IMG/VR virus record: IMGVR_UViG_3300005253_002442
Location: 1-28,135 of that record
From: a virus
Length of the DNA stretch: 28,135 bases
Reading direction: 5' to 3' (one strand)
Of this stretch, positions 1-24,261 are shown piece after piece. The notes below the pieces were generated by a model. It saw only the letters and a program-made list of their open reading frames with translations, did not search any database and was not told where the DNA came from. Made by a program: the position numbers and the translations under genes. Within the stretch, counting starts at the first letter, position 1. Each line of letters begins with the position of its first letter.

Positions 1-152
1 TGGGCTTTACGTATTTTAACTTCAAATCCCTGTATATCTTTTATTATTTCCTTTGGGTTTTTACTAAGCTTCTTTTTCTTGTGCCATTCATAAATTAAAC
101 TATATTTCCCAGTTTTTTGGCTCTTTACTTTACTTTTTTTCTTTTCAGACAT
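1..152 (-). CDS. Partial lysine-rich small protein, C-terminus beyond window
   Basis: An open frame starts at an ATG at 152 and runs off the left edge after 50 codons with no stop. It begins MSEKKKSKVKSQKTGKYS and is very rich in Lys, with the segment YEWHKKKKLSKNPKE near residues 21-35. A purine-rich stretch (AGAGA) lies about 8 bases upstream of the ATG. An exact TATAAATA lies on the same strand at 197-190, about 40 bases upstream. I recognise no family. The basic composition would suit a nucleic-acid-binding protein, but that is only inference. Confidence 0.5.
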   Translation of the reverse strand, partial: MSEKKKSKVKSQKTGKYSLIYEWHKKKKLSKNPKEIIKDIQGFEVKIRKA

Positions 153-189
153 TTTTTAATTCTCTTATTTTTATTTTTAATTAATTTTT

Positions 190-197
190 TATTTATA
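190..197 (-). promoter_or_regulatory. TATAAATA box upstream of the partial gene
   Basis: The minus strand reads TATAAATA at 197-190, about 38-45 bases ahead of the ATG at 152. The octamer equals the T4-type late promoter -10 element and is also close to a sigma-70 -10 box. The DNA is so AT-rich that chance occurrence is possible. The same octamer precedes the parB-like gene and the 3567 gene at similar distances. Confidence 0.3.
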
Positions 198-229
198 TTT
201 ATTATAAATTTTATAACTTTATAAATATT

Positions 230-1213: not shown

Positions 1214-1251
1214 TTTCAATTAACTTCTAAAAATTTATAAATATAAAAAAA

Positions 1252-3370: not shown

Positions 3371-3420
3371 AATTTTTTCCTCTTTATATTAATTTTTTGT
3401 TATTTATTTAAAATTTTTTA

Positions 3421-3428
3421 TATTTATA
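3421..3428 (-). promoter_or_regulatory. TATAAATA box upstream of the ParB-like gene
   Basis: The minus strand reads TATAAATA at 3428-3421, about 50 bases ahead of the GTG start at 3370. It sits at the outer end of the left arm of the 30-bp inverted repeat. A promoter role is inferred only from the motif and its position. Confidence 0.35.
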
Positions 3429-3500
3429 AAATTTTTAGTTATCGTTTAATAACTACTTATTAAATATTATTTATTAAACAATAACTAAAAATTTTATAAA
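3423..3500. repeat. 30-bp inverted repeat between two divergent operons
   Basis: The left arm (3423-3452) begins TTTATAAAATTTTTAGTTAT. The right arm (3471-3500) is its reverse complement with one mismatch in 30 positions. The spacer is 18 bases. It lies in the 196-base AT-rich gap between the parB-like operon (leftward) and the clamp-loader operon (rightward). Such a place suits a replication origin, a partition site or a shared operator. No DnaA-type boxes or iteron arrays were recognised. In DNA this AT-rich short repeats arise by chance, but 29 of 30 matches is well beyond that. Confidence 0.75.
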
Positions 3501-3520
3501 TTAATAAAACTAATAATATT

Positions 3521-3528
3521 TATAAATA
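3521..3528 (+). promoter_or_regulatory. TATAAATA box upstream of the clamp-loader operon
   Basis: An exact TATAAATA lies on the plus strand about 40 bases ahead of the TTG start at 3567. It matches the T4-type late -10 element and the general -10 pattern. No clear -35 element was identified. Confidence 0.35.
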
Positions 3529-3566
3529 AAAATTTACATCAAAATACCGTTAATACACGTACAGTT

Positions 3567-4346
3567 TTGATATACCTAACTAATTTTGATATGGATCAAA
3601 ATAATATAAACGATCTAATTAAAAATAAAAATAATATCATAATAGATTGCCTAAGTAGTAGTATAAAAAAGATGAAATTCCTAATATATAATACAATAAC
3701 CAGCACAACAAGCATCCTATCACATGGAAAACAATATATACTAATAAGAGACGCATACAAACTTGATAACGAACTATTAAACTTTATTTTCAAAAATTCA
3801 CGAAATAAAGATATATATTTAATTAATATAAATACAAACCAGGAAAGATTTATATATAAAAACCATAGGAATAAATATCAATATTATAAATGTAAATACG
3901 ACCCAACAAAGAATAATTTCTTTATTTATTTAAAAAAATTAATTTTTCAAAATGAGAATAGAGAAAACTTATTGGACGAATTTAATAACCTAAATATGGG
4001 TACAATACTAAATTTTATAGGATATAATCTTTCCATGTCTAACCTTAATAAAATAAGTTTATATGATAATTATAGAATAATAAATAGATTATATAAATAC
4101 AAATATAAGATTAAACGAAAACATATCATGAATATTATTACTAAAGTATTAAAAATTCCATCTTTCGGTGTAGCGATTAACTTCCCCCCACAAATAAAAA
4201 AAAATAAAGATAAAAAAGTTAAAGATAAAAAAGAATCTAGCAAAGACCTTCAATTATTAGCATCGAAAAAGATGGTTAATTATTTTAAAAATAAAGAAAA
4301 TAATTTTAATAATAAAACCGTAAAAGTAGAAGGAGGATTATTTTAA
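3567..4346 (+). CDS. Putative clamp-loader delta-like subunit
   Basis: This 259-residue protein resembles the N-terminal domain of DNA polymerase III delta (HolA) in outline. It opens MIYLTNF, where HolA proteins often open MIYL.YG. Residues about 55-80 (GKQYILIRDAYKLDNELLNFI) follow the delta pattern of a beta strand, then 'rdA.kL...ll', then a second strand (DIYLININ). I see no Walker A, as expected for delta, which opens the clamp but does not hydrolyse ATP. The C-terminus is Lys-rich. Its stop overlaps the start of the RFC-like ATPase gene (TAATG), which supports a joint complex, as for T4 gp62 with gp44. The start is a TTG without an obvious Shine-Dalgarno; ATG at 3591 is the alternative. 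The similarity is weak and was judged by eye. Confidence 0.5.
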   Translation: MIYLTNFDMDQNNINDLIKNKNNIIIDCLSSSIKKMKFLIYNTITSTTSILSHGKQYILIRDAYKLDNELLNFIFKNSRNKDIYLININTNQERFIYKNHRNKYQYYKCKYDPTKNNFFIYLKKLIFQNENRENLLDEFNNLNMGTILNFIGYNLSMSNLNKISLYDNYRIINRLYKYKYKIKRKHIMNIITKVLKIPSFGVAINFPPQIKKNKDKKVKDKKESSKDLQLLASKKMVNYFKNKENNFNNKTVKVEGGLF

Positions 4347-5278
4347 TGTCAATTGATGATAGTAATTTATTAGTTGAAAAATTCAGGCCACAGGAATTAG
4401 ATGATGTAGATGGCAACGAAGAAATAATAGAAAGTTGTGAAAAATTCATCGAAATGGGAAGAATACCACATCTTATCTTTTCCGGTCCAGCGGGAGTGGG
4501 TAAAACAACAATTGCGGAAATACTCGCAAGAAAAATTGCTGGAATAGGTAATACTAAAATATTAAATGCAAGTGATAAAAGAGGTGTAGCGGAAGCTAAA
4601 GGTCCAGTCAAAGAATTTGCACAAACTGATGGTCAATTTATGGATAGACTTAAGATAATTATACTTGATGAGGCCGATCATTCAACCGATGACTTTCAAG
4701 CAGCAATAAGAAAAATAATGGAAGATGAATCAGCATATTGTAGATTTATTTGGATTTGTAACAAATCTCATAAAATTATAGACCCAATAAAATCAAGATG
4801 TGTAGAATTCAAATTTAAAAAAATCAATAAAAAATCAATTCTAAAAAGATTAATGTACATTTGTAAAAAGGAACATATAGATTTAACGATAAAACAATTA
4901 GCAAAAATTATAAACGTGCATCAGGGTGATATGCGTAAATGTATAAATATTATTGATGCAATTAAGACTGGTGCCAAGCTCGATGCCGTGATTAGTGATA
5001 TCAATCCAAAATTATACTTAAAATTAGTACTAAAGAACGATTTAAAGGGAATAAGAACATATATCGATAATAATATATTTAGTAATGATGATATGAAATA
5101 TCTAATTAACAGATGTATTGATATAATAATGTCAACTGACGGATTAATAGGTAAAATTAAATCGAATTTGTTACTTTTAAATCTAACCGAAGCGGATTAT
5201 AGATTGGCAATGGGTACTAATTATTATTCTATAGCATTTTGGCTTCCTTTAAGTGTACACTGTCTTTTAGACGATTAA
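4346..5278 (+). CDS. Sliding-clamp loader ATPase, RFC small subunit / T4 gp44-like
   Basis: A 310-residue AAA+ ATPase, close to the usual size of RFC small subunits and T4 gp44. It loads the ring-shaped processivity clamp onto primed DNA. Visible motifs: LVEKFRP at 9-15 (the 'W.EKYRP' motif of RFC), Walker A GPAGVGKTT at 47-55, NASDKRG at 74-80 (RFC box 'NASD.RG'), Walker B IIILDEAD at 104-111, sensor-1 region FIWICNKSHKI near 134-144, and the SRC arginine-finger motif at 150-152. An AGGAGG stands about 9 bases before the ATG, and the start overlaps the upstream stop. The NASD and SRC boxes point to the archaeal/eukaryotic/T4 branch rather than bacterial DnaX. Confidence 0.93.
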   Translation: MSIDDSNLLVEKFRPQELDDVDGNEEIIESCEKFIEMGRIPHLIFSGPAGVGKTTIAEILARKIAGIGNTKILNASDKRGVAEAKGPVKEFAQTDGQFMDRLKIIILDEADHSTDDFQAAIRKIMEDESAYCRFIWICNKSHKIIDPIKSRCVEFKFKKINKKSILKRLMYICKKEHIDLTIKQLAKIINVHQGDMRKCINIIDAIKTGAKLDAVISDINPKLYLKLVLKNDLKGIRTYIDNNIFSNDDMKYLINRCIDIIMSTDGLIGKIKSNLLLLNLTEADYRLAMGTNYYSIAFWLPLSVHCLLDD

Positions 5279-5292
5279 AAAGGAGAAATAGA

Positions 5293-6198
5293 ATGTATAT
5301 TAATAACTACATCGATGATATAAAAGAAATTAAAAAAAAGTTCAAAACGTCCCTTAAGTATCTAAAATATATTGAAAGTTTAAAAGATAAAGAAGATACA
5401 AATAAAATACCCGAAAACCTTTCATGTTTTCTAAATAAATTAAAATATACTAAAGATTATAATCTTAAATATTATTTGGAACAAATAGCATATTTAAAAA
5501 ATGATATAAATTTTAACTTTTTAAAACGTTTAAAAACCGAAAACTGTCCTAACCTTTCAATTGTAATTATGTTTAATGAAATTCCTGAACGGTGGATTTG
5601 GAAACAAGAAAAAATATTACCAAGTATATGTAATGAATGGGAACAGGAATTTATGATTTCAATATATAATAGATATAGAAAACAAACAAATAGAACTCCC
5701 AAACAAAATACTATTATTAAAAAGCTCCAACGTAAAAGTAGATTGGATAAGATTCCTGATAAAATACCAGAACAAGTAGAATTAAAAAAAAAATTAAATA
5801 TTAATAATCCTACTCATAAGGAATCTGTAAAAATAATAGTAGAATTGGTTGAAGGATGTGGGAAAGACTGGGATTCATACACAAAATCAGAACAAAAATT
5901 TATAGAAGTTATATCAGTAAAAATACAAAAATCGGGAACAAAATTAAACGAAGAAGAAATTAAAAAAATTGAAAAAATTTATAATAAAGATAGAAATTAC
6001 TGGTTTGATAGATTTATTAATAGACAGTTAAGGGAATGGATAACTAAAGAACTTACAGGTTCATCTAATAATACATTAAAAATTGTAGCTGTAAAGGAGA
6101 TGAGAATATTATCTATCCTATGTGATATAGTAAACATTAAAAAATATAATAAAGAATTAATGTTTAATAAATGGATACCAATTAGACAAATATTTTAG
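5293..6198 (+). CDS. Unknown protein in the replication operon
   Basis: A 301-residue, Lys- and Ile-rich soluble protein. The ATG at 5293 is chosen because AGGAG ends 7 bases upstream and the previous gene stops at 5278; a longer frame reaching back to 5239 would overlap that gene. I recognise no domain. A segment near residues 200-240 (KDWDSYTKSEQKFIEVISVKIQ, then LNEEEIKKIEKIYNK) resembles a short helical motif in various phage replication proteins ('FL.SI..Q...G..LTEKQ...L.KI'), but the match is loose. Its place between the clamp loader and a large P-loop ATPase suggests a replication or loader accessory role. Confidence 0.7.
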   Translation: MYINNYIDDIKEIKKKFKTSLKYLKYIESLKDKEDTNKIPENLSCFLNKLKYTKDYNLKYYLEQIAYLKNDINFNFLKRLKTENCPNLSIVIMFNEIPERWIWKQEKILPSICNEWEQEFMISIYNRYRKQTNRTPKQNTIIKKLQRKSRLDKIPDKIPEQVELKKKLNINNPTHKESVKIIVELVEGCGKDWDSYTKSEQKFIEVISVKIQKSGTKLNEEEIKKIEKIYNKDRNYWFDRFINRQLREWITKELTGSSNNTLKIVAVKEMRILSILCDIVNIKKYNKELMFNKWIPIRQIF

Positions 6199-6210
6199 GA
6201 GAAAGGAGAT

Positions 6211-8412
6211 TTGGTAGAAGAGGAAGAAACTGAAATAGAAATTGTAATATACGATACCTTAGAGGACTTTAAAGAATTATTAGATGAATTAAATAAAGAG
6301 GATTATAATACATCAATTGAACAAATTGCTAATATTTTCCAAAAAATACCAGAGATAAATTCAGTCCTGATATTACAATTACGAAACGAAATTAAAATTA
6401 GAACTGGAATATTACTTAAAGATATTGACGTTATTATTAAAGAGTGGAAAACAGAAAAAAAGAAAGAAGAACAAGGAAGTCAAACTAACCAAACTACAAA
6501 TATCCAAACAGAAACAAGTGTTTTAGATTCAAATACAGAAACAATACCGTTTGATGATAATGAAATAGTAATTACTCCTAATAAAGTTTATTTATTTAAT
6601 AATCAAAAACAACATACTATATGTAATTTTAAAATCGATATATTAAATAAAATATTAGACGAGAGAAAGGGAGAACATCTTTACACCTTCAAAATAGGGG
6701 GCATTATATATCCCAGTTATACATTAAATGGTATTATAAGAGAACTTGGAAATAATATTCTAAGGGGAACTATCGGAAAAGATGTAATATCTTACCTTAT
6801 TGTTGAAAAATCTAAAGATTTACCTGTAAGAATGGGCAAATATATTCCCGGATGGGATGATGGCTGGTGGCTTCCCATGAACGAGAAAGAAAAGAATTTT
6901 GGAATTGTTTGTTATTCGGAAGAACAACGAACCGTATATAATAATTGTAAGAAAATATACAAAAAATACAATACCACTGAAAAAAAAGAGTTAAAAATTA
7001 AATTACAAGAATTTGTTAAGCTAACCGATATGCCCGAGGCATATAAAACCATAATTATTAGTATTTGTATTATAAATCCCTTCCGATTATATTTTATCAA
7101 AAATTTTGGGATATTTCCCCATTTAGCTTTATATGGAAGAACAACCGCCGGTAAGACTCATATGCTCGATTTCTGGAGTACAGACTTCTATAAAAATCGA
7201 TTACATCACATGTCTGGCAAAACGGCATCATCTCCAACCCGAATTGAAGGTGCAATAACAGGTTCTACCTTCCCAACTATGGTTGACGATTATAAAGAAA
7301 CAAATACCTATAATACCGCCCAGATGGAAATGATTTTGAAAGACTGTGCAACAGGAATGCCTTTTTGGAAGAGATTACATAGAGATGGTATTAGATTTCG
7401 TGCCAGAGAAATAATATCATCGGTCTTAACTACCTCTCAAGCCCTTGGCGAGTTAATGAATGATTCCGCTCTAAATGCCAGGACCATTAGTCTACACTAC
7501 AATGAACCAATAGTAAGTAATGATAATTGGATTAAATTAGAATTAGAGTTAAAAAAAGAAAAGTTGTTCTCATTATTATATAATGCCACAAAAAATTGGT
7601 CTAATAAACATTTGAATAAATTAATGAAAGCAATTAATAAAGAATATAAAGAAAAATTAGAATATATAAATCCCAGAATTACCGATTTAAATTATCCTAA
7701 ACTCCTAAAAATTTATAAAATTATTTTAGCGGGTTGTTTCTTAACTGAAAAAATATACGGAATTAAATTGGATGTTGGGGACGTATGGGAGGTATTAGTT
7801 AAGGCAAGGAGAACAACTGTAAGTACATTTTTAGATATTTTCCTTAGTTATTGCGAATTTGCTAGACGTCTTGATCCGGAACACCCCATTCCTAGAAGAT
7901 TAAATTATATATTAGAATATGATGTAAAAAATAAGGTATATGTATTTCAAACACCACAATTGGGTGATTTTAATATCTTTTATTCAGGATACATTAATGA
8001 AAGGTTCAAATTTAATTTAAATTCATTATTTGAAAGAATAAGTGACGCATTAAAACATAAAGAACTAATTAAGTTAAGTAGATTGTATTATAATGGCAAA
8101 AAAAATAAAACAATTCAAATAAATCCAGTGTTGATACAAAGTGGAGATACTGAGCCAACAGAGGGTATGGAAAGGATGTCTAATATCATATCTATTAATA
8201 CATCGATAGAACCCGAATATAGGGAAGATGCAATACGGGGAATCACACCACAAGATGTAAAAATTGAATTTGAAAATATGGGAGAGACCTTCGAAATTCC
8301 TGACCATAATAGTAGTACCGGAGAAAGTAAGGAACTTGATGAAGAATTAAAAAATTTGGAAGAAATTGATAATTTTGGTATTCCAGATGAGGAGGAATTT
8401 AAGGATTTATAA
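6211..8412 (+). CDS. Large P-loop ATPase, putative replicative helicase
   Basis: A 733-residue protein. An acidic N-terminus and a polar linker (about 75-115) precede a domain of unclear type (about 120-290). The ATPase core follows: Walker A GRTTAGKTH at 309-317, a likely Walker B TMVDDYKE at 356-363, and a later segment SVLTTSQALGEL...ALNARTISL that fits sensor and Arg-finger positions of hexameric AAA+ helicases. The layout recalls DUF927- or D5-like phage and plasmid helicases, but I could not confirm either. The C-terminus is strongly acidic (from about 690). The start is a TTG at 6211 with AGGAG 9 bases upstream. It is the last gene of the clamp-loader operon, which supports a helicase role at the replication fork. 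Confidence 0.75.
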   Translation: MVEEEETEIEIVIYDTLEDFKELLDELNKEDYNTSIEQIANIFQKIPEINSVLILQLRNEIKIRTGILLKDIDVIIKEWKTEKKKEEQGSQTNQTTNIQTETSVLDSNTETIPFDDNEIVITPNKVYLFNNQKQHTICNFKIDILNKILDERKGEHLYTFKIGGIIYPSYTLNGIIRELGNNILRGTIGKDVISYLIVEKSKDLPVRMGKYIPGWDDGWWLPMNEKEKNFGIVCYSEEQRTVYNNCKKIYKKYNTTEKKELKIKLQEFVKLTDMPEAYKTIIISICIINPFRLYFIKNFGIFPHLALYGRTTAGKTHMLDFWSTDFYKNRLHHMSGKTASSPTRIEGAITGSTFPTMVDDYKETNTYNTAQMEMILKDCATGMPFWKRLHRDGIRFRAREIISSVLTTSQALGELMNDSALNARTISLHYNEPIVSNDNWIKLELELKKEKLFSLLYNATKNWSNKHLNKLMKAINKEYKEKLEYINPRITDLNYPKLLKIYKIILAGCFLTEKIYGIKLDVGDVWEVLVKARRTTVSTFLDIFLSYCEFARRLDPEHPIPRRLNYILEYDVKNKVYVFQTPQLGDFNIFYSGYINERFKFNLNSLFERISDALKHKELIKLSRLYYNGKKNKTIQINPVLIQSGDTEPTEGMERMSNIISINTSIEPEYREDAIRGITPQDVKIEFENMGETFEIPDHNSSTGESKELDEELKNLEEIDNFGIPDEEEFKDL

Positions 8413-8770
8413 ATTTTTGTTTTTTAAATTTCTAAAAATTTAGCCCTTAATCCCTGTTAGTCGTCCCTTCTTTAAATAGCCATTATTTCAAAATTAGAGA
8501 TATTTTAAATGCCCAACCACTGACTATTTTTTTTGAAAAAAAATTAAGAAAAAAAAAACATAAGTACACTATATAGAATAATAAAAATTTTATTTTTTAT
8601 TAAATAATTTAATTTTATTTTTTCTTATATGATACTTATGATTTCTCATTCTAATAATATTTATATTATTATTATTATTATAACTGGACATATGTAAACT
8701 CCCTAAGAATCTAGAAATTTCTGTTTCTGCTGACCTTACTAATTTATTTTTCTCTTTTTTCATCTTCAAC
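8413..8770. other. AT-rich stretch without a convincing gene
   Basis: About 360 bases of very AT-rich DNA follow the putative helicase gene. An AAATTTTT/AAAAATTT pair at 8411-8441 could be a weak hairpin at the operon end. A minus-strand open frame at 8590-8811 is low in complexity (runs of Asn and Lys) and I do not accept it. I see no RNA gene or clear promoter. The stretch ends at a nine-A run (8771-8779), where base composition changes. Confidence 0.6.
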
Positions 8771-9080: not shown

Positions 9081-9467
9081 TTATTTATTTAGTAAGGCTC
9101 TTAGATCTTTTAGTTCTTGTTGGCTCAGCTGTGCTTGACTGCCTTCTGAACACTGGGCACAATCTTCAGCCATACATGCGTCTTGGCTATGACCGTCATC
9201 TGCATTAAATACCCAACCTTTTTGCTCTAGGTTTTTAAGCATTTTCTCGCTGGTTAAGTCCTTCATAGCATCTTCAGAAACCATTACTACACATTCTGCC
9301 TCTTTGCGCAAGCCTGCTCTGGCTAAAGCTAAAGCGGCACGCTTAAGATAAGCCTGCACATCAGATACACGATTGCTTTTTAAGTCATCTTCGAATGAAT
9401 GCTGCTTATGGAGATTGCTTTCTAATGAAGCAAAAAACTCTTCTTCTGAAGTTTTATCTAGAAACAT
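9081..9467 (-). CDS. Small virion-operon protein with the shared helical-hairpin module
   Basis: A 128-residue protein, last in the leftward operon. The segment at about 36-70 (DVQAYLKRAALALARAGLRK, then EAECVVMVSEDAMKD) matches the 'L..AA..L...G..K.AE.....' hairpin seen in the three genes before it. A tail follows with Cys residues (ACMAEDCAQCSEG near 97-109) and a final helix QQELKDLRALLNK. AGGA stands 7 bases before the ATG at 9467, and the start overlaps the previous gene by 14 bases. I cannot assign a function; a minor head, scaffold or decoration role is possible from context only. Confidence 0.75.
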   Translation of the reverse strand: MFLDKTSEEEFFASLESNLHKQHSFEDDLKSNRVSDVQAYLKRAALALARAGLRKEAECVVMVSEDAMKDLTSEKMLKNLEQKGWVFNADDGHSQDACMAEDCAQCSEGSQAQLSQQELKDLRALLNK

Positions 9468-9786
9468 TTCTTGGTCCTAAAAGCGCTTGAAGCATTTCTT
9501 CATTTAGTTGCTGTTGGTTTTGTTCATCTGCCGATGCTTCTTTTACAAAATCAATATTTACCTGAGTATTTTCGGCCGTATGTACTGCAGTCGGAATATG
9601 CTCCATCATCTTTGTAATAACTTCAGACGCACCAAATTTGCCCATAGCATCTAGTAGTTCAGCCGCCTTATTTAAGTTTTGAAGCGCTTCATCCACTGCG
9701 TTATTATTGGCATTTTTCGTAATCTTGTTAGGATTAAGATATTGATCCATTGCCGCAGCATAGTCATATGGTTCGTTATTATTCAT
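9454..9786 (-). CDS. Small virion-operon protein with the shared helical-hairpin module
   Basis: A 110-residue acidic protein from the ATG at 9786, beginning MNNNEPYDYAAAMDQYLNP. The N-terminal AAAMDQYL resembles AAAMEEVL in the gene starting at 11390. Residues 31-64 (VDEALQNLNKAAELLDAMGK, then FGASEVITKMMEHI) carry the shared hairpin. The ATG overlaps the stop of the preceding gene by 8 bases, suggesting translational coupling; an in-frame start further upstream at 9822 would give a longer overlap and I think it less likely. No enzyme motif is seen. Confidence 0.72.
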   Translation of the reverse strand: MNNNEPYDYAAAMDQYLNPNKITKNANNNAVDEALQNLNKAAELLDAMGKFGASEVITKMMEHIPTAVHTAENTQVNIDFVKEASADEQNQQQLNEEMLQALLGPRNVSR

Positions 9787-10816
9787 CTTCAAATGAGCCA
9801 TCCAACTCCGAAAGATATGCATCGATCAAATTCACATCAACACCATCTTCAACGGTTAATAAGTCTTTCAAGTCTAAGTCAAGTGCAAGCTCTGGGTTCA
9901 TCGGATCGTCAAATCTGTGTACCACATTAGCATTCTTCTCAAGCCATGCATCAAGTTCAGAGTGCACATTCTCAAGCTCTCCAAGTCCTAATCCTTCAGG
10001 AGCGCCTTCTGGTGCATTACCAGTCATCGGTTCATGTACACCCATCTCCTCTTCTGTTAAGTCTTCTACAGGTGGTGGTGGTATATCATCATCTTCTTCC
10101 CAAAGAGTAGATAGAGTTTCCATCATCTTATCGGCTTCTCTATATTTTCCACCCTGCAATAGGGCATGAATTTTATCAATTAATTCATCAACCGTCTCTG
10201 CTCCAATGTCTTCAAGATCCATTTGAGGTCCTGTTTCTGTTTCATCGGATACAATGCCCCTTATTCCCTCATGAGGAACTGGGTCTGGTTCGGGCAATGG
10301 TAGCTGTAACTCTTCTATCGGCTCGGAAATGCCTAATGGATCTGCCTCGGAAATTAGCCCATCAAGCGCACGCATTACTGCAATGGATGATTTTACATAT
10401 CCAGCATCATCCAGGTCTGCGGAAACCTTGCTCAAAGTATAAGATAGATCTTGTAAAGCTTCAGCTTTCTTAGCGCATTTACATTTGCACTCACATTCAT
10501 CTTTCCCTTCACAAGTACATTTGTCACAACCTTTTGTACAACACTTACATTTTGCGGCGGCCTTTTTCTCTACCTTAACGCACGGACATTTACCTTTAGT
10601 CTCGGTACAGTCACATTTATCACAGCCTTTGGGACATTTGCATTTCTTCTTATCACAGGGGCATGCGCCTTCACACTTACCATCCTGTTTGCATGCGCAA
10701 TTCTTCGGACAATCACATTTATCTGCAGCTTGTTTATAAAATAAATGATTATGAGCGTCGCTGCTCAAAATTTCTTCCATTTCAAGAGCTACTGATGTGC
10801 CTAGTTTGCTGAACAT
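9779..10816 (-). CDS. Metallothionein-like Cys-rich protein with helical and acidic domains
   Basis: A 345-residue protein of unusual make-up. Residues 1-30 form an N-terminal helix (ALEMEEILSSD) like those of its neighbours. Residues 34-114 hold 24 cysteines in CxC, CxxC and CC spacing, with repeated units CKCPKGCDKCDC and CCTKGCDKCTC, rich in Lys and without aromatic residues. That is the composition of metallothionein-type metal binders. The shared helical hairpin follows at about 118-158, and a second copy at 209-240 (ELIDKIHALLQGGKYREADK). The rest is acidic and Pro-rich. The Shine-Dalgarno TAGGA precedes the ATG at 10816. It lies between the poly-Asp gene and the 110-residue gene. Binding of Zn, Cd or Cu ions is inferred from composition; how this serves a virion operon is unknown. 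Confidence 0.82.
   Translation of the reverse strand: MFSKLGTSVALEMEEILSSDAHNHLFYKQAADKCDCPKNCACKQDGKCEGACPCDKKKCKCPKGCDKCDCTETKGKCPCVKVEKKAAAKCKCCTKGCDKCTCEGKDECECKCKCAKKAEALQDLSYTLSKVSADLDDAGYVKSSIAVMRALDGLISEADPLGISEPIEELQLPLPEPDPVPHEGIRGIVSDETETGPQMDLEDIGAETVDELIDKIHALLQGGKYREADKMMETLSTLWEEDDDIPPPPVEDLTEEEMGVHEPMTGNAPEGAPEGLGLGELENVHSELDAWLEKNANVVHRFDDPMNPELALDLDLKDLLTVEDGVDVNLIDAYLSELDGSFEDE
10475..10717 (-). other. 24-cysteine metallothionein-like segment
   Basis: This codes for residues 34-114 of the preceding entry. Cysteines fall at 34, 36, 40, 42, 48, 52, 54, 59, 61, 65, 68, 70, 77, 79, 90, 92, 93, 97, 100, 102, 108, 110, 112 and 114. Two units of the form C.K.C.KGCDKC.C are visible, so the segment probably grew by internal duplication. 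Confidence 0.85.
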
Positions 10817-10832
10817 AAATTCCTACGTTGAC

Positions 10833-11390
<558 letters not shown>

Positions 11391-11453: not shown

Positions 11454-14400
11454 TTAGAAGCTCATCCTTCGTGACACATTATCACCAGACCACAATCCGG
11501 CAAGTTCGTCTGCTAGATCATTCTGAGTACCTGGTGGTGCTGGAAGAGTGACGTTATTAGCATCTAGGATGCCAACACGCGGCATTGATGCCTGCTTTGC
11601 CACTGCTTGACGCTCAACAAAACGCTTCATGCTCTCAAAACCATTATCATCGAAACTCATGATCTCTTTAACCTGCTCACTTACAGCAGAGCGCTCACCC
11701 GAAATCATACCACGGCTAACCATGTCATATGCTAATTCGTATGATCTAGAGATCTTTACTTCGTATGCCTGCTGATCAACAGCAGCCTTCTTTGCGTGAT
11801 GCTCTTTGACAAGCTCAGCAGCGAACTGTGAGGAGTCAGAGTCACCCTGTGCATAATACTGCTTCCAGTACTTAACTGCATCAGAATCTAGACCATTTGC
11901 AATAAGCGCATCAAAGTCAGTTTCAGGATCGATACGACCAGAAACAACAAGTCTATGAATCTCTTCTGCTGCCTGACGAACCTTTGGAGGAGCTGTTGCT
12001 ACATCCATATGGGTTTTATGGGCCTCTTCAAGAGTCTCAACCTTGGCAAGATCCTTTTGTGGCTTATTATCAAGCTGAGTGGTCTCGCCACCACCTGGAT
12101 GTGCTTCCTGCAGCATTGGGCTAAACTTAAGTCCCTTCTGTGCTAGCTTCTCACGATATGCCGCACGTCCTTCTTTTGTGGAAAGATTAGGAGCAGTAGC
12201 CTCGGACTCTACAGTAAGTTCATTAACTATACTTGCCAAAGCGCCACCTGCAAGCTCTTCCTTGGATAGGGTTAGACTGCCATCCTGTCCGATCTCTGCA
12301 TAGTTCGTATCATCAGCGGATGGTGGCTCCATCTCTAATGGTGGTAGATCTTCCGGCATTTCTGGAACCATATCGCCTACAACATCTCTAGCCAGCTCTT
12401 CGCGTGACTTTGGCGCTGCCTTTTCAGGAGCATCATATGTCACTCCCTCTCCCGCTCCCGGTGGAACAGGTAGCGGTGCCATCCTAGCGACAGGACCCTT
12501 TGATGTTACACTGTCTGGTCGCTCTTGTAGCATCTCCTGGAAAGTTACAGGCTCTTCTTCTGTGCTGCCCAATCCACCATATTCCAGTACTTCCTGGGAA
12601 GGTGTGGTCTCAACATCCACAGGTACTCCTGCGCCAGGTCCGCCAGCTCCTACATCTGGATCAGATAGCATTGGCTGCGCGCGCTTAAGTAGGGCCTTTG
12701 TTCCATTAGCGTACTTCACAAACGCCTCCATTAGTTTGTAACAATTAGCAAGTGTCTGCTTGGTCTCTTCGCAAGCGTCAACAGTTAACTTGTCAACATA
12801 ATTAAGTTTTTCTGCGGATACCTTTTCACTATTATCATAAATATGCTTAGACATACGAAGCTCTTCGACATGATCGGTAAGCTCCTTAACGGCATTCTTC
12901 ATACCTACAGTAATGGCTCCGCCAACCTTCTTTTGGAAGGTTAATAGCTCTTTTGCCTTAGTGGGCATTTCTTCTGCCAACTCATCGAAGCCCTCAAGCT
13001 CTTCGCTTGGCTCTTCGATTAGGGCATCAACTGCCCTACGAATATCGGCAAGAACATTCTCTGCCTGAGTTAGAAGCTCAGGAAGCTGCTCTTTTGGATC
13101 TCCTGATCCGCCTGCATCTACTTCTGGCTCACCAGCCATAGGCGCTTCTGGCATTGCTTCTGGCATAGGTGCTTCTGGCATAGGTGCTTCTGGCGGCGCG
13201 CCTTGCGCACCTTTAAGTATACCCTTAACCTTGTCAAAGCTATCTGTACGAAGCATACCAAGAATCTTCTTGCCAAAGACCTTGCTTGCTACAGAGTCAT
13301 AATGAAGATCAGACCTACCATTGGTAAGTTCATCTACAGTTGCGGTGAGGATAAGCTTATCGGCGGCATAAACCTGCCAACGACATTGGCCTAAATTATC
13401 AGTTCCATCAGGATGAGCAGACTTAATGAACTTTGCAGTAAGTGTAGCGCGGGATAGCTTTTCCTTGGTTTCTTTATCGCCAGGATATAGACCATCAACC
13501 GGACCAACATCTGGAAAAGGCTTGGCGCCTACCATCTGCTTATCATTCTTATCACGATTAGTCTGGTAATCCTCTTTCTCGTAAGGAAGAGTTGAAGGAT
13601 CGTTTACACCACCACCACCTTGATGATAAGCAGTCTTTGCTCGATCAACAGCCTGCTTACGACGAAGAGCACGATCCTCAGCCATACGCTGTAGTCTCTT
13701 TTTACGTGCTTCCTCGGTTTCTCCATAACTGGAGTAGCCTAGATGCATGCCATCGACGGGACCAGTATTATCTACGCCCTGACCAACCATTTGCTTATCG
13801 TTCTTGTCACGGTTAGTCTGGTAGTCTTCCTTCTCGTAAGGAAGAGTTGAAGGATCGTTTACCCCTCCACCACCTTGATGATAAGCTTTTGATTTCATAG
13901 TCATATTTGTTTCCTCACTATTTGCTAGTTGGTCCACATTATTTTGTAGTCTGCTCAACTGTTGTGAAATACTAGCAAGTTTTATATTGATCTCGTTCTT
14001 AAATGCCTCTTTATCGCCAGATAATTCTTTATATTCATCTGGTTCTTCGCCACTTACTTCGGCTTCTTCATGTTCTTCAACTTCTTCTACAGTTTCTGCA
14101 AGAGCTTTTAGTCTTTCCACCGCACTCTCTAAGTCCTTTTTAATGGCAGAAATGGTCGATTCAGAAGTAATTTCGTGTAATACGAGCTTAGAAACTTCTT
14201 TTTCCTTATCAGCAACATAGCCTGCTATACTATCTGCGGCCGAAGCAACAATATGTCTAATTCTAGCATTAGGATCTGCTCCGTTGACTACAATTGACAA
14301 TTCAATAGGCTTTAAATCTACATTTATTTCGCCATAACAGCTCTTATTGCGCATATGATCGCAGAAATCCATCTCGGCCCTTGCAACATTACCACAATCA

Positions 14401-14990
14401 GTACAGATTGCTCTGCCAACGGCAGTCCCCATAGAAACAGACGTTGCATACTTAGAGGAGACCTTCCGGGCTAAATCTGGATAAGTAATCTTATCAAGAG
14501 CACATAATGCAACCACACGTCTACGTGGCCAGTCATAATATGTATCTACAACGACGCCTCGTATCATGTCAACAGAATTTGATTTATGATCCAGACATAA
14601 TGGTTTTCCAACCCAATCTTTATGAGCCTTAACCAGTTCTTCCTCGGGGAAGATATCATTATTTGAATTTTTGTATGGTAGAATGTTTATATCTGAACAG
14701 ACCCATTTCCATGAATCATTTTCTTTTGTCCAGCTTGCGACAAGCACATCGCCATTTGCGTCTTTTCTAAGAACCCCACTATCATCCAGCAATGCAGCCT
14801 CTGCGGCGTGCATCATTACTGCTGAAAAATATAAAAAGTCTTTAGCTTTGGGAGCGATGGTTTTTAACTCCTCAGCAATCTTAGTAAATCTCTCTTCAAC
14901 AATATTAAATTGGGCTGGTAGAATTGCGCTTAAGGGGCGTAAATCTTCCGGGGAAACCACTAATGCTTCGCCTATTTTTCTAAAAGACAT
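11454..14990 (-). CDS. Prohead-protease-like polyprotein with long C-terminal extension
   Basis: A 1178-residue protein from the ATG at 14990 (GGTGA upstream; a TTG at 15002 is less likely). The N-terminal 250 residues look like a phage head-maturation serine protease. They contain VGKPLCLDHKSNSVDMIRG with a candidate catalytic His at about 135, SVSMGTAV with a candidate Ser at 184-186, and a zinc-type cluster CTDCGN...DFCDH at about 196-212. A coiled region follows (about 265-360), then two copies of a Gly/Asp/Lys segment starting AYHQGGGGVNDPSTLP, a small folded-looking domain (about 480-575), PEAPM repeats (about 585-610), a long helical part, and Pro/Glu-rich and helical C-terminal parts. 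Such proteases are usually 200-300 residues, so the extension may be a fused scaffold or head-core protein. It lies six genes downstream of portal. The protease call is moderate. Confidence 0.65.
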   Translation of the reverse strand: MSFRKIGEALVVSPEDLRPLSAILPAQFNIVEERFTKIAEELKTIAPKAKDFLYFSAVMMHAAEAALLDDSGVLRKDANGDVLVASWTKENDSWKWVCSDINILPYKNSNNDIFPEEELVKAHKDWVGKPLCLDHKSNSVDMIRGVVVDTYYDWPRRRVVALCALDKITYPDLARKVSSKYATSVSMGTAVGRAICTDCGNVARAEMDFCDHMRNKSCYGEINVDLKPIELSIVVNGADPNARIRHIVASAADSIAGYVADKEKEVSKLVLHEITSESTISAIKKDLESAVERLKALAETVEEVEEHEEAEVSGEEPDEYKELSGDKEAFKNEINIKLASISQQLSRLQNNVDQLANSEETNMTMKSKAYHQGGGGVNDPSTLPYEKEDYQTNRDKNDKQMVGQGVDNTGPVDGMHLGYSSYGETEEARKKRLQRMAEDRALRRKQAVDRAKTAYHQGGGGVNDPSTLPYEKEDYQTNRDKNDKQMVGAKPFPDVGPVDGLYPGDKETKEKLSRATLTAKFIKSAHPDGTDNLGQCRWQVYAADKLILTATVDELTNGRSDLHYDSVASKVFGKKILGMLRTDSFDKVKGILKGAQGAPPEAPMPEAPMPEAMPEAPMAGEPEVDAGGSGDPKEQLPELLTQAENVLADIRRAVDALIEEPSEELEGFDELAEEMPTKAKELLTFQKKVGGAITVGMKNAVKELTDHVEELRMSKHIYDNSEKVSAEKLNYVDKLTVDACEETKQTLANCYKLMEAFVKYANGTKALLKRAQPMLSDPDVGAGGPGAGVPVDVETTPSQEVLEYGGLGSTEEEPVTFQEMLQERPDSVTSKGPVARMAPLPVPPGAGEGVTYDAPEKAAPKSREELARDVVGDMVPEMPEDLPPLEMEPPSADDTNYAEIGQDGSLTLSKEELAGGALASIVNELTVESEATAPNLSTKEGRAAYREKLAQKGLKFSPMLQEAHPGGGETTQLDNKPQKDLAKVETLEEAHKTHMDVATAPPKVRQAAEEIHRLVVSGRIDPETDFDALIANGLDSDAVKYWKQYYAQGDSDSSQFAAELVKEHHAKKAAVDQQAYEVKISRSYELAYDMVSRGMISGERSAVSEQVKEIMSFDDNGFESMKRFVERQAVAKQASMPRVGILDANNVTLPAPPGTQNDLADELAGLWSGDNVSRRMSF
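13531..13631 (-). repeat. 101-base direct repeat, copy 2 in coding order
   Basis: This copy and the one at 13786-13886 have equal length and differ at a modest number of mostly third-codon positions. Both encode the segment that begins AYHQGGGGVNDPSTLP and ends NRDKNDKQMVG. The period is 255 bases (85 residues). Confidence 0.85.
13786..13886 (-). repeat. 101-base direct repeat, copy 1 in coding order
   Basis: The partner of 13531-13631, inside the protease-like polyprotein gene. Mainly synonymous differences between the copies indicate an old duplication kept by selection on the protein. Confidence 0.85.
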
Positions 14991-15068
14991 ATTTGTCACC
15001 AAACCTAGACTGATTCTTTATTAGATAAAGTTTTATTACCAGGAAATTGTTGGAATTTATAGTACACA

Positions 15069-16037: not shown

Positions 16038-16883
16038 TTAAAGATTGCTAGACCCGCCAGTTCCTGAAGGCCCCACGCCTCCCGGCAATCCGCCACCTTC
16101 ATCATAAGAAAATCCACCAGTATTTTCATCATCACCAGCAAGTGGTCCAGCACCACGTATTCCTTCAAAATTATCATACTGACCAACTTGAGGGGCCATG
16201 TTGGCTGCTAACTCTTCTAATAATAGCGCCCTTAACTTTCGAACCCTTTTTTCTTTCTCAGATGCGGGATGTTGCATCTTTAAATTAAATGCGTTTGGAT
16301 CTCTAAATGCAGGAGGAGTATCTTCAATGGGAGTGTTTTCAATAGGAACCTCAGGAGCAAACGACTGCTGAAGAGAAAAAGAAGAAGCGGGAGGAACTCT
16401 GCCCATATCAAAATGATCCCTCATCTGATCAACACTACTTTGAGCTTCTTTTGTTATAATCTTCCTATAAAGCGCTTCTGTGTTGTTATCTAATTTATTG
16501 CCAAACCCATATGTTTCAGCTTCACTCAGTGCCTTATCAACACTCCAACCATCATGGTCAGTACGATAAAGAGCGATAGCCATTCCTGTTCTGTCACTGC
16601 CATGCCGGCAATGCACATAAATAGGCTGATGTCTATTTAGTATAGATACAATATGATTTTGTAAATACTTCATTAAGCTAAATGAGTCACTTCCGCTAAT
16701 TGGTATTACAATATGACGCATACCAAGTTCTTTTACTTTAGACGAAATATTAGATGCAATACTCCCATCAAGACTTAAAATAGTCTTCATGTTAAAAACA
16801 TCAGACAATAATTCAAGATCGCTATCACTAGGAGCGCCTCCCCTATAAATCTCGCCCGAAACTCTATCAAATCTATCTATCAT
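16038..16883 (-). CDS. Dual-specificity / tyrosine phosphatase-like protein with disordered C-terminal tail
   Basis: A 281-residue protein. Residues 1-150 match the cysteine phosphatase fold: IYRGGAPS near the N-terminus (as in DSP-type 'vyRGgqP'), the strand TILSLDG, and the active-site loop VHCRHGSDRTG with His91, Cys92 and Arg98 (HCx5R). Asp66 in SGSDSF could be the general acid. The substrate may be a phosphoprotein, an inositol phosphate or an RNA 5' end; the sequence does not decide. Residues 150-281 are Pro-, Gly- and Ser-rich with one basic helix (KEKRVRKLRALLLEELAA) and resemble tails of neighbouring virion proteins. It starts 2 bases after the previous stop. A phosphatase among portal-adjacent genes is unusual; it could be packaged and delivered into the host. 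Confidence 0.82.
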   Translation of the reverse strand: MIDRFDRVSGEIYRGGAPSDSDLELLSDVFNMKTILSLDGSIASNISSKVKELGMRHIVIPISGSDSFSLMKYLQNHIVSILNRHQPIYVHCRHGSDRTGMAIALYRTDHDGWSVDKALSEAETYGFGNKLDNNTEALYRKIITKEAQSSVDQMRDHFDMGRVPPASSFSLQQSFAPEVPIENTPIEDTPPAFRDPNAFNLKMQHPASEKEKRVRKLRALLLEELAANMAPQVGQYDNFEGIRGAGPLAGDDENTGGFSYDEGGGLPGGVGPSGTGGSSNL

Positions 16884-20025: not shown

Positions 20026-23000
20026 TTATGGCCCAGCCGGCGGTCCTGCCTCCGGTAATTCGCCCTCAGGCGGGGCTCCACCCGGAGGTCCACCTAGACC
20101 ACCTGGAGGTGGTCCTAATCCTGGCAGCTCTGGAAGCTCAGGACCGCCTTCACCTGCACCTTCTTCGGTTTCACCTGGAAGTAGACCCTCATCTGGCTCA
20201 TCAATGGCATCATCAGGCCCCAAAGAACGAAGCTCATTAAGAGGAATTTTAGCTAGCGCAACCTTCTCTCTGTCATTAATAGCGTCTTGAATAGCTTCAA
20301 CCTTCATCTTTCTTACTTCATCTTCCCAATCAAGACCAAGAGATCGATAAACCGTTTGAGTGGCCACTCTCTTATCTGGCCCCTGCCCTTGAGATAGCTG
20401 TACTAATGTCTGAATATGATCTCCGGCATCAAATAATGACATATGATTCCATTCAACCTCAGGAACGATAAGTACCTTCTCGCCTTCCTTTCGTTCATAG
20501 AAATCATTAATCTTTGATATTGGGGCAAATACTTTTCTTCTAAGCCAAGAGCCGAGCATATTTCTAAACTGTAAATATCTCTGCTTTAGAACATCTAGTG
20601 TTACTCCACCATTCGCATAGGTTACATCCGCACCGCCATCCATTAATACCTGAGGAATCATTAGCCCTATATAAATCTCTTTAAGAAGCTGTGTGATATC
20701 ATTAGCAATATCAATGATTCCGGCATTATGGCCTACACGTTCAACTGTAACGGCCTCATGAGTGAAGATCTTGAAATCTTTATCATATTGAGAATTCCCC
20801 TGTATTGTTATTTTCCCATTTCGTCTTGTTATGAATAAACCTGTTGGCACAGTAAAACACCATACTTTCCCCTGATACGGAACCTTAGAAACTATTTCTT
20901 TTTTCTCTTTTGTTCTAGGGTCTATACTGTATTTGTTAACAAATGGTTTATTGCCAATGTTAGAATTGGACCATTGTACAGTATATAGTTCATGGTGATG
21001 ATGATTTTCACTTTCACGCGAGAACATGGTAGGAACAAAGCCGATCTTATAAACCATCTCATATACATCGTCAGCTAATTGCTTCGAAGATGTATAATAG
21101 AAAAAGCCATTCAAATCTTTGTTTTTTGGCCTTACATAATTGCTTCCATCACCGACCACCATAGCGGCTAACAATATTTTCAATAATCGCGGACTCAAGT
21201 TTAAAACCCATTTAGGAATTATTTTATTATAAGATTTATAACCCTCATCACTACCTATTTCATTCACAAAATGATTAAATAATTCTCTACCACAAAAAGT
21301 AATGTCCCAACCCTTTGCCCCGTCTCTCTTAAAAAACCTTTCAGAAAACGTCTTATCTATAATTACAGCAAAATCATGAGCACATTTTCGCATGGTCTCA
21401 AAATGCGGATTTTTAGAACCGTCTTTGTTTGTTATATTTTGACAAACGCCTATTGTGTTTTGTGATTTATTATTCGTATATAGGCAACCTTCACTTATCA
21501 TGTACCCAAGTAGCTCTAAATATAATTCTATAGGAACATTCTTTTGATTTACATTAACCTCCTTAATAGAATCATTTCCTTTCCATTTAATTTGCGATCT
21601 AAATCTACGATCCCAAAACTTCATATCCTTAATTCGAACTTTGTCCCAATTATCCCACTTCCAGGTACGGCCTTTTCCTGTTCCGGTAAACTTCTTATGT
21701 TGTACCCACATTTTATGATTAGGAGTAACTTTTATATCCATCTTATTATTATGTATGTGATACATTTCTCCATCATAATCATAAATATGAGCGGCAGAAG
21801 GCGCATGATACTCTAACTGTTCATTATCGGAATTAAAACAAGCAATCTTAAAACCTGTTCTCGTTCTAGCCCCAACGGAATGAAATGATCCAGTTGTACC
21901 ATCTGCTACCATAATTTCTTCAATTACTTCATCATATTTTTTAAACCCTTTATCTGTTAAAACTTCAGTTTCTTCATCATGACATTCCTCAAAGATTTGA
22001 CGCCATGCCTCAAGATCTACTGGTGTGGGCTTATAATTCTCACCAGCCCCGCCAATCTTAACGAGTGTTAGTGGATTAATCATATTATCTGCTTGTGCAA
22101 ACTTCGAATTCCCATGTATAGAAATTTTATCATTCCGCCTAGTAATAAATGCACCAGTAGGGACTGTGAAACACCAAACGACTCCATCATAATCTACTTC
22201 ATTTACAGTTGCTCCGCCACCATTGTTATTAGCCTTTTTAACACCCGTATAAACGAGAGGCTCTCTGCCATAGTTAGTTGTAGACCAGCATACAATATAC
22301 TCGGTTACAACTCTACCATCAGTCTTTTTCGCAACACTTGTACATATAGTTGGAACGTGGCCTAATTTAAATGCAAGCTCATAAACATCATCAGCAAGGT
22401 GTTTAGATACAGTTGAATATTTAAAAAGTTTAGACTTTGTTCCATATTTACTAGTTACAGTCGTTCCGTCTCCTTGCATCATTGATTGAAGCAAAATAAG
22501 TAATAATTCAGAATGTAGACCAAAAACCCAACGAGGCAATCTCTTTTCATAAGAACCGGCCTTCTCTCCATTGCCAATCTCATTCAAAAAATGCTCTACG
22601 ATTTCTTTACCATGAATTATTCCCTCCCACTTTTCTTTGGGGGCATTCTTTGAATAACCAGAACCCTTTATTCCAACATAGTGGCCACATTTTCTATTAA
22701 GACATGATGCAAATTTATTAAATGTTTCACGCATCTCTTCATAGCATCTATTGCTAGTAAGCTGGCTTGTAATTATCTTTGCATCATATCTTCCCTTTTT
22801 ATAGTTTTTATAAACGCAACCTTCGGACGCCATATAACCAAGGACCTTTAAATACAAACCAATTGGCACTTTATGTCCAGCTACATCAATGTCCTCTAAA
22901 CGCTGCTCGCCATTCCACTTGGCATGAGACTTAAACTTATAATAAGTTTTCTTTTCTAAAAGTTCTGACGCCCTGCGTAAACTAAAATCTGTCCACCCTT

Positions 23001-24261
23001 CACCTTTACTCTCTTTTACTAAAAGCTTATGATTGGGAGTTACAAGAGTATCTACCTTTTTCCCTTTAAAATGTAACATCTTGCCTTTATAATAAGACAT
23101 ATGAAATTCTTCAGGAATGTGATATTCAATCTCGCCAGTCTCTTGATTAAAACAGGCTATTTCTACATTATCTTTAAGCGTAAGAAGTTTTAAATTGCCA
23201 TTATCATCCGCGACAGCACCACTGACATAATTAGGACTTATATCCAAATTATCAGTTGTAGTAATTAAATCAGTGATTTTTTTGAAACCGTCTTTAGTTA
23301 AAACCTCGCAATCAGTCGAATAGCATTCGCGGAGTTTATCGAACAACATCAGATGTCTGAAACAACATACTACCAAACCTGTGCCCCTTGTTTCATATGG
23401 GCTAATTCGTCTAGCTAGGTGTGAAGCGTAAAAATTGCTTAATGGGATATTTTCGCCACGCTTTACATGTTCAATAATGCTTTGGTCAAGTCTCTGGCGC
23501 TGCTGTACGTCTGATGGTCTATTTGAAGTTACTATGGTCTTTAAATTTTCATCAGGGCGCAAGCTTAGAATTGGCTCACCAGCTACTACGCTATGTTTAA
23601 CAACCATGTAGTCTGGATTTTGAATTAAGAATCTACTCCACTTAGCAGATCGCTCATCAAGCTCACCATATACAAATGTTTCACCAAGAAGCCAATACTC
23701 CTGAGCCATCTGCACACAAATGTTCATTAGATCGGTTTCTTCTACCATGTCCTCAAAAAAGGCTTGAATCTTTGGATCTTTACATTTAATGTTTAATTTG
23801 GAAATTGGATATGTTGAATGTAAAGAAATAGCATTATGTACAACAGGGTTCAAGGCAAAAAACGCTCTGCTCCACGCATTTATAGTGGCTCTATCTCTTG
23901 GTAGATTAAGATTGCTATTTAGCCAAAGAGGGCTATAAATTTCTGGAATCTGTCGTAAAGACCCTCCAGACCCTCTATAGGATCCTGCGCCCGCACCAGT
24001 ACCAGAGCCTGGGCTTACTTGGGCGTCCTTTCTAAACCCTGAATAGTTCGAAAGCACATTGCCGGCCGAGGTTTTAATATTATCTTCATACCCCCTTGGC
24101 AGGTCATACCCGGTACTTCCCTTTTCTCTAAAATCGCCTCTGAACACTTCGTCTTGCATTACTTCTCGTCGATATTGAGAAACTACCTTAGACATATGAT
24201 TGGAGGCTACATTGGTAGTGCCCCTATTGCTTAAAAATTTTTCTATTCCAGTTTTTGACAT
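20026..24261 (-). CDS. Portal protein precursor interrupted by two inteins
   Basis: The frame encodes 1411 residues. After removal of two inteins (residues 313-718 and 760-1156) the exteins of 312, 41 and 255 residues give a 608-residue protein, a normal size for a large phage portal. Portal-like features are INAWSRAFFALNPVVHNAI (about 126-144), MAQEYWLLGETFVYGE, and, after the second intein, IIDIANDITQLLKEIYIGLMIPQVLM and RYLQFRNMLGSWLRRKVFAPI, followed by a Pro/Gly/Glu-rich tail. The portal forms the ring through which DNA enters and leaves the head. AGGAA stands just upstream of the ATG at 24261. It is the first gene of the leftward virion operon. The intein calls are stronger than the portal call. 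Confidence 0.82.
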   Translation of the reverse strand: MSKTGIEKFLSNRGTTNVASNHMSKVVSQYRREVMQDEVFRGDFREKGSTGYDLPRGYEDNIKTSAGNVLSNYSGFRKDAQVSPGSGTGAGAGSYRGSGGSLRQIPEIYSPLWLNSNLNLPRDRATINAWSRAFFALNPVVHNAISLHSTYPISKLNIKCKDPKIQAFFEDMVEETDLMNICVQMAQEYWLLGETFVYGELDERSAKWSRFLIQNPDYMVVKHSVVAGEPILSLRPDENLKTIVTSNRPSDVQQRQRLDQSIIEHVKRGENIPLSNFYASHLARRISPYETRGTGLVVCCFRHLMLFDKLRECYSTDCEVLTKDGFKKITDLITTTDNLDISPNYVSGAVADDNGNLKLLTLKDNVEIACFNQETGEIEYHIPEEFHMSYYKGKMLHFKGKKVDTLVTPNHKLLVKESKGEGWTDFSLRRASELLEKKTYYKFKSHAKWNGEQRLEDIDVAGHKVPIGLYLKVLGYMASEGCVYKNYKKGRYDAKIITSQLTSNRCYEEMRETFNKFASCLNRKCGHYVGIKGSGYSKNAPKEKWEGIIHGKEIVEHFLNEIGNGEKAGSYEKRLPRWVFGLHSELLLILLQSMMQGDGTTVTSKYGTKSKLFKYSTVSKHLADDVYELAFKLGHVPTICTSVAKKTDGRVVTEYIVCWSTTNYGREPLVYTGVKKANNNGGGATVNEVDYDGVVWCFTVPTGAFITRRNDKISIHGNSKFAQADNMINPLTLVKIGGAGENYKPTPVDLEAWRQIFEECHDEETEVLTDKGFKKYDEVIEEIMVADGTTGSFHSVGARTRTGFKIACFNSDNEQLEYHAPSAAHIYDYDGEMYHIHNNKMDIKVTPNHKMWVQHKKFTGTGKGRTWKWDNWDKVRIKDMKFWDRRFRSQIKWKGNDSIKEVNVNQKNVPIELYLELLGYMISEGCLYTNNKSQNTIGVCQNITNKDGSKNPHFETMRKCAHDFAVIIDKTFSERFFKRDGAKGWDITFCGRELFNHFVNEIGSDEGYKSYNKIIPKWVLNLSPRLLKILLAAMVVGDGSNYVRPKNKDLNGFFYYTSSKQLADDVYEMVYKIGFVPTMFSRESENHHHHELYTVQWSNSNIGNKPFVNKYSIDPRTKEKKEIVSKVPYQGKVWCFTVPTGLFITRRNGKITIQGNSQYDKDFKIFTHEAVTVERVGHNAGIIDIANDITQLLKEIYIGLMIPQVLMDGGADVTYANGGVTLDVLKQRYLQFRNMLGSWLRRKVFAPISKINDFYERKEGEKVLIVPEVEWNHMSLFDAGDHIQTLVQLSQGQGPDKRVATQTVYRSLGLDWEDEVRKMKVEAIQDAINDREKVALAKIPLNELRSLGPDDAIDEPDEGLLPGETEEGAGEGGPELPELPGLGPPPGGLGGPPGGAPPEGELPEAGPPAGP
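20794..21984 (-). mobile_element. Portal intein 2 (397 residues, LAGLIDADG type)
   Basis: This intein begins at Cys760 (CHDEETEVLTDKGFKKYDEV) and ends TIQGN before Ser1157. Splicing block B has VTPNH at intein residues 86-90. LAGLIDADG motifs stand at 158-167 (LLGYMISEGC) and 272-281 (LAAMVVGDGS). The C-terminal block is VWCFTVPTGLFITRRNGKITIQGN. The expected mechanism is class 1: Cys1, terminal Asn, +1 Ser. The penultimate residue is Gly where most inteins have His. The extein join would be FEE|SQY. Confidence 0.93.
22108..23325 (-). mobile_element. Portal intein 1 (406 residues, LAGLIDADG type)
   Basis: This intein begins at Cys313 (CYSTDCEVLTKDGFKKITDL) and ends SIHGN before Ser719. VTPNH is at intein residues 95-99, LAGLIDADG motifs at 161-170 (VLGYMASEGC) and 279-288 (LQSMMQGDGT), and the C-terminal block reads VWCFTVPTGAFITRRNDKIS. 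It shares its whole layout and many residues with portal intein 2, only 41 extein residues further on. The extein join would be LRE|SKF. Confidence 0.93.

Follow-up and report, generated by a model that had tools for sequence, protein, structure and literature searches.

Metallothioneins, those of animals and plants as well as the bacterial SmtA and BmtA proteins (PF02069), are the described systems closest in make-up to the 24-Cys segment considered here, which is about 30% Cys, rich in CxC and in Lys, and free of aromatic residues. Unlike a metallothionein, the segment is not a free-standing small protein, since it forms residues 34-114 of a longer protein (345 aa) that also has conserved helical regions; it also lacks His, unlike many bacterial metallothioneins. 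Zinc knuckles and the half-sites of zinc ribbons (CxxCG...CxC) are resembled by the motif of the homologous family, CxxC(G)x(3-9)CxC with some C..H...C variants, although the family motifs are single, short and set in a disordered linker, and are tandem and compacted in the DNA analysed here. In phage T4 the genes for core and internal proteins (gp22, gp67, gp68 and IPI-III), which are small charged paralogues, lie between the portal and protease genes and the capsid gene, and to our knowledge these proteins carry no Cys arrays. The locus described here is similar in that its Cys gene lies between portal/protease and capsid genes and in that several small charged paralogues share an N-terminus, but no sequence similarity to the T4 proteins was detected. 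The head module of the Bacillus/Lysinibacillus phage G is homologous in its gp14 portal (34%), its gp19 protease (33%) and its gp27 capsid protein (59% over 78 aa, in the related contig L084); the phage G genes next to that for the protease yielded no homologue of the Cys protein family.

The stretch of DNA that was analysed (“the window”) is a single linear IMG/VR virus record of 28,135 nt (IMGVR_UViG_3300005253_002442). Its head gene cluster sits on the minus strand and runs from the portal gene, which contains two inteins, through several small genes to the genes for a 1182-aa protease-domain protein, a 185-aa protein, the 345-aa Cys protein, and two proteins of 122 and 128 aa (Table 1). 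The small genes between portal and protease include one that resembles protein-tyrosine and dual-specificity phosphatases (16038-16883, minus strand), with homologues in 38 related loci. The protease gene contains a 101-bp repeat, 91% identical between its copies at 13531-13631 and 13786-13886, which encodes AYHQGGGGVNDPSTLPYEKEDYQTNRDKNDKQMVG twice, and in a PhoH gene on the plus strand (24464-26794) a LAGLIDADG-bearing intein interrupts the Walker A (GTGK) motif. An internal ATG just past the Cys gene is a likelier start for the 122-aa ORF than the first ATG, and the 128-aa protein is 30% identical (E=3e-6) to a 231-aa protein of L084. The second Cys motif, found in this 128-aa protein, also occurs in relatives, at L084:14663-15358 and in L093 (1173-2087), where there are three HGDDCMCSxCMD-like repeats. 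In the relatives that were examined the Cys gene comes after that of the head protease, and L084 encodes a major capsid protein, the one related to gp27, about 9.5 kb further on; the place of the Cys gene is thus between the gene for the head maturation protease and, judging by synteny, that for the major capsid protein.

Table 1. Positions of the head-cluster genes and of the parts of the Cys protein in the window
Feature	Position	Strand	Basis or remark
Portal protein with two in-frame inteins	20026..24261	-	
1182-aa protein with head maturation protease domain (phage G gp19-like)	11454..15002	-	
Paralogue, 185 aa: same N-terminal/hairpin plan, Asp/Lys-rich tail, zero Cys	10833..11390	-	
345-aa Cys-array protein, candidate head-region core/internal protein	9779..10816	-	N-terminus and hairpin homologous to 78-member family
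Conserved N-terminal helical stretch, residues 1-31, ending in YKQA (KxA)	10724..10816	-	Alignments; AlphaFold
24-Cys segment, residues 34-114	10475..10717	-	Translation; AlphaFold predicts disorder, pLDDT about 52-64
Degenerate repeat unit R1 (DKCDC...CKCPKGC), residues 32-65	10622..10723	-	
Degenerate repeat unit R2 (DKCDC...CKCCTKGC), residues 66-97	10526..10621	-	
Degenerate repeat unit R3 (DKCTC...CKCAKK), residues 98-117	10466..10525	-	
Conserved helical hairpin module, residues 113-161	10334..10480	-	HMM family; AlphaFold pLDDT 93-95
Second helical hairpin, residues 209-241	10094..10192	-	AlphaFold pLDDT 91-95
Small cluster protein, 122 aa from first ATG	9454..9822	-	Similarity of plan judged by eye
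128-aa cluster protein	9081..9467	-	Related to same-position 231-aa gene of L084
Second Cys motif CMAEDCAQC inside 128-aa protein	9150..9176	-	L197 has CAAEDCAAC
End of match between window and near-identical 44-kb contig	8758		Cuts homing-endonuclease-like ORF

A near-identical 44-kb contig (IMGVR_UViG_3300005663_002624) has the same genes, including the Cys gene, which lies within the part of the window that both contigs support. The left 8.7 kb of the window (1-8757) is probably a chimeric join, a real rearrangement being less likely, because the match between the contigs stops on an A-run in the homing-endonuclease-like ORF, the G+C content, 36-48% to the right of this point, is 22-31% to its left, and on the second contig the break is followed by the 230-aa gene that is found after this cluster in relatives. 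The RFC-like clamp loader, ParB and GIY-YIG genes carried by positions 1-8757 may belong to another virus.

The original prediction, made from the window alone, described 24 Cys in 81 residues with CxC, CxxC and CC spacing, many Lys and no aromatic residues, and the translation bears it out: the 345-aa ORF is uninterrupted, and the 81 residues of the segment include 24 Cys and 21 Lys with no Phe, Trp, Tyr or His. Composition statistics rule out chance or a frame artefact as the source of the array, the probability of at least 24 Cys in 81 residues being 3e-29 at the 0.94% Cys background of the remaining operon residues. The Cys are spaced as 11 CxC, 3 CxxC and 1 CC; the CxC spacing is in excess (11 against 6.75 expected, a number reached by 2.4% of residue shuffles) and the CC spacing is depleted (1 against 6.8 expected, with 0.1% of residue shuffles as low). 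Three degenerate units, each starting with DKC[DT]C, can be made out in the segment, and the alignment score of R1 with R2 as protein is reached by 0.1% of shuffles. The DNA alignments of the units show similarity no higher than that of codon shuffles, so a recent DNA duplication was rejected as the origin of the array, and a duplication, if that is the origin, is old. The segment is not a simple DNA repeat, since it uses both Cys codons (17 TGT and 7 TGC) and both Lys codons.

The remainder of the protein is helical. In an AlphaFold2 model built with 34 family members, from which metals are absent, the N-terminal helices (residues 3-18 and 20-31, pLDDT 75-92) and two hairpins are confident, while the Cys segment is of low confidence and is predicted to have no fold of its own in the metal-free state. 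A fold search with the model gave nothing usable, with short helical matches only and a best E of 1.4. The helical module that the segment's protein had been said to have in common with its neighbours was confirmed by a hairpin HMM seeded with ten proteins of the gene cluster, which matches the Cys protein at 1e-17 and the adjacent 185-aa protein at 9e-17, both of these being among its seeds. The 185-aa protein also contains a run of about 15 Asp, and a PPWLKK cassette recurs among these head-region proteins (the 185-aa protein, L088, L128, L199 and others), in linkers and tails rich in Lys and Asp.

Homologues were collected by reading the genes after the protease gene in 27 related contigs; in most of these, the first or second gene after the protease encodes an N-terminal stretch, a linker and a hairpin. 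A pattern scan then added loci. The resulting 78 distinct members, a few of which are paralogues that share a contig (the 185-aa neighbour is an example), come from uncultured phage contigs of up to 480 kb, and searches with the portal protein found 286 related stretches, many of them on contigs >150 kb. The 78 members follow a plan in which an N-terminal helix ending near KxA is followed by a variable disordered linker and a helical hairpin. The N-terminal stretch is SVSDFVAATMDAVLNSKEHKSLFGTQYKxA in the main group and SVALEMEEILSSDAHNHLFYKQA in the window, and the hairpin is of the AIDSLLTASAALDSVGLEKSSALSLKLASLVVEA type. No match to the family was found among 50,697 phage records, so that it has no cultured member there, and Pfam, PHROGs and NCBIfam gave no useful match; a search of bacterial genome contigs for a host gave no match, and the near-identical contig was the one close homologue of the 24-Cys form that was found. 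Some Cys-rich ORFs in other frames of related loci were set aside, as they look like shadow frames of repeat-rich genes.

In these 78 members Cys is nearly confined to the linker, where 298 of the 302 counted are found (298 of 6653 residues, or 4.5%), as against 1 of 3070 residues in the hairpin and 3 of 6501 in the C-terminus (both <0.05%). At least one Cys is present in 70 of the 78 linkers, most homologues having just 3-5, and the first lies a median of 8 residues past a Y/F-K-x-A motif, as it does in the window (YKQAADKCDC). The pattern CxxC-x(3-9)-CxC (e.g. CPKCGSDACKC) occurs in 36 of the 78 linkers, compared to 1.1 in shuffles, with one copy in 28 proteins, two in 6 and three in 2 (L104 and L119); CxxCG occurs in 27 linkers (0.9 in shuffles), C..H...C in 8 (1.2) and C..C..H..C in 6 (0.3), and the union of the zinc-knuckle-like patterns covers 48 of the 78. 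One Cys column is more than 90% conserved in 17 homologues. Divergent first proteins outside the 78 also have Cys clusters, located after a KTAA site (CKDCDCDPCEC in L201 and CKCKC in L207). Tandem ADDNDARKKKDSSS-type repeats are found in the same linker in L090, L066, L079 and others, with copy numbers that differ between phages.

These distributions bear on two alternative readings. If the linker tolerates any polar repeat, then the array could be a near-neutral, low-complexity expansion in this phage; linkers are indeed highly variable and rich in Asp, Ser and Lys (elsewhere DDNDA, KKK or SSS), and the motif comes and goes repeatedly across the tree, the nearest relatives being without it. 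Such drift is nonetheless unlikely in view of the rarity of Cys in all other parts of the family, a motif spacing about 30 times more frequent than in shuffles, the conserved Cys column, and the CxC excess and CC depletion of the window segment. It is also conceivable that the thiols, which are numerous and all lie in a single flexible part of a head-region protein, stay reduced while the head is being assembled and become disulfides once the cell has lysed, so that the internal proteins of a large head are linked to one another. This redox crosslinking is distinctly improbable, given that a spacing dominated by CxC is poor for intrachain disulfides, that Cys counts differ among close relatives, and that both the CxxCG pattern and the substitution of Cys by His favour metal ligands. 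In linkers of the CAEHGKMDSC or CGSKHGDADSC type, His replaces a ligand Cys, and its presence at the second ligand in some homologues suggests metal ligands rather than disulfides.

The proposal of a metal-thiolate segment in a head-operon protein is thus supported at the level of sequence by the confinement of the Cys, by the recurrence of CxxC...CxC and by the His variants. The search of metagenomic phages for homologues that accompanied the proposal has yielded the family described above, and non-conservation of the Cys, which was to count against it, is confined to the nearest relatives, where the segment is missing. The label “metallothionein-like” fares less evenly: the composition and CxC-rich spacing of the window member agree with it, but what the family as a whole shows is a small knuckle motif in differing numbers of copies, and comparison of the segment with Pfam and NCBIfam up to E=10 and with solved structures up to E=1 returned no metallothionein or other match. 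No profile of a zinc-binding family was matched above its cut-off either, the best being Zn_ribbon_8 on L161 (E=0.035, 14.6 bits against a cut-off of 34.4). As judged from these comparisons, the segment is not a member of any known metallothionein family, because it matches none and does not stand alone, but it may work like a metallothionein or a zinc-knuckle array. Mammalian MT2 binds seven Zn and SmtA four (PMC10612145), from which the 24 thiolates would be expected, by metallothionein analogy only, to hold very roughly 6-8 divalent ions.

A metallothionein borne in the virion would be packaged with the DNA, injected, and used to deliver or buffer Zn or Cu, or to scavenge oxidants, in the new host. 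Besides the Cys, Lys and CxC make-up and the absence of aromatics, this would draw on the position of the gene among head genes and on the shared signal-like N-terminal stretch, which by analogy with the T4 internal proteins would allow packaging. It is improbable, as no metallothionein family is matched and the 3-5 Cys of most homologues are too few for a store and closer to a structural site. The knuckle-like Cys/His motifs lie beside Lys, of which the window segment has 21, and could instead gather or organise phage DNA in the prohead, as the knuckles of retroviral nucleocapsids do with RNA. Most homologue linkers are acidic overall (Asp 23%, Lys 14%), unlike nucleic-acid-binding knuckles, and we regard this role as very doubtful.

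The relationship of the array to the family motif was considered on a tree of the 230-aa protein encoded downstream of the cluster, a quick tree with long branches. The window groups (96% SH-aLRT) with L086 and L087, whose homologues have short linkers with 0-1 Cys, and relative to these two the description of the segment as inserted is fair. The next clade is mixed, with 5 linker Cys in L088 and 0-2 in others, and further out there are 6 each in L084 and L093, 6 in L101 and 12 each in L104 and L153 (same contig); the presence of the motif switches many times across the tree. The segment appears to have been both gained and lost in the family, because the two nearest relatives lack it. Counting Cys does not separate gain from loss, but because the motif is common outside the window's clade, a new insertion is no likelier than an old motif that several lineages lost and that grew in the window. 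Expansion itself appears to be a habit of the family, since members have one, two or three copies of the motif. Rich in CxC, the window array does not show the clean CxxC...CxC spacing of the family, and its descent from the small motif is suggested by its position and its three CDKC-type units (CDKCxC) rather than by an alignment of Cys. No library has a name for the family, within which the array seems to be no isolated oddity but, of the cases found, the extreme one of a metal-binding linker that can expand.

The explanation that we favour, and to which we give about an even chance, is that the protein is a fast-evolving internal or core prohead protein whose flexible linker owes its local folding to Zn-thiolate knuckles, which in the window would have expanded until the Cys are about as dense as in a metallothionein. 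A protein of the core or interior, comparable to the T4 internal proteins, is favoured because of the place of the gene in the head module, the tandem paralogues, which share the N-terminal/hairpin plan, and the enrichment of KxA[SAGDEQ]. In the first 60 residues of many L086-L113 proteins this site clusters at residues 21-40, and it occurs at residues 16-60 in 84 of 175 cluster proteins as against 26.5 in shuffles, related proteins being counted repeatedly; it is a suggestive candidate for a prohead-protease processing signal or a targeting signal. Zn-thiolate knuckles are favoured because of the linker position, the exchange of Cys and His, and the CxxCG pattern. An uncultured large-phage lineage, with a head module distantly related to that of phage G, would thus encode a prohead core or internal protein in which an N-terminal helix ending near KxA serves as a targeting or protease-processing signal, the helical hairpin serves as an assembly interface, and a disordered linker lies between the two. 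This linker opens, in most family members, with a tetra-Cys (or Cys/His) motif, which in the reducing cytoplasm would form a knuckle around one Zn2+; at the same place in the window, the segment would have grown to three degenerate units. Such knuckles could compact or stiffen the linker, or link copies of the protein, during head assembly. A structural role is the most likely one for the putative metal site, although the function of the segment seems to be dispensable in the window's clade, because the L086 and L087 homologues have almost no linker Cys, and this counts against the explanation.

The literature searched, which included few subscription papers and is weak evidence of absence, contains no phage metallothionein or metallothionein-like Cys array in a phage head protein, and a 2026 review of jumbo phages makes no mention of metallothionein, cysteine or zinc. 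In the homologous head-region proteins of giant phages, one site holds 0, 1, 2 or 3 Cys units, with the 24-Cys form as the extreme, and this natural series makes it directly testable whether metal ions help to build or load very large heads. There is a slim chance that the lineage packages and injects a metal store of metallothionein grade, which would set the availability of zinc or copper in the host or quench oxidants, with the copy number of the Cys units tuned between phages. If the protein is injected, it would offer a route by which phages alter the metal balance of their hosts.
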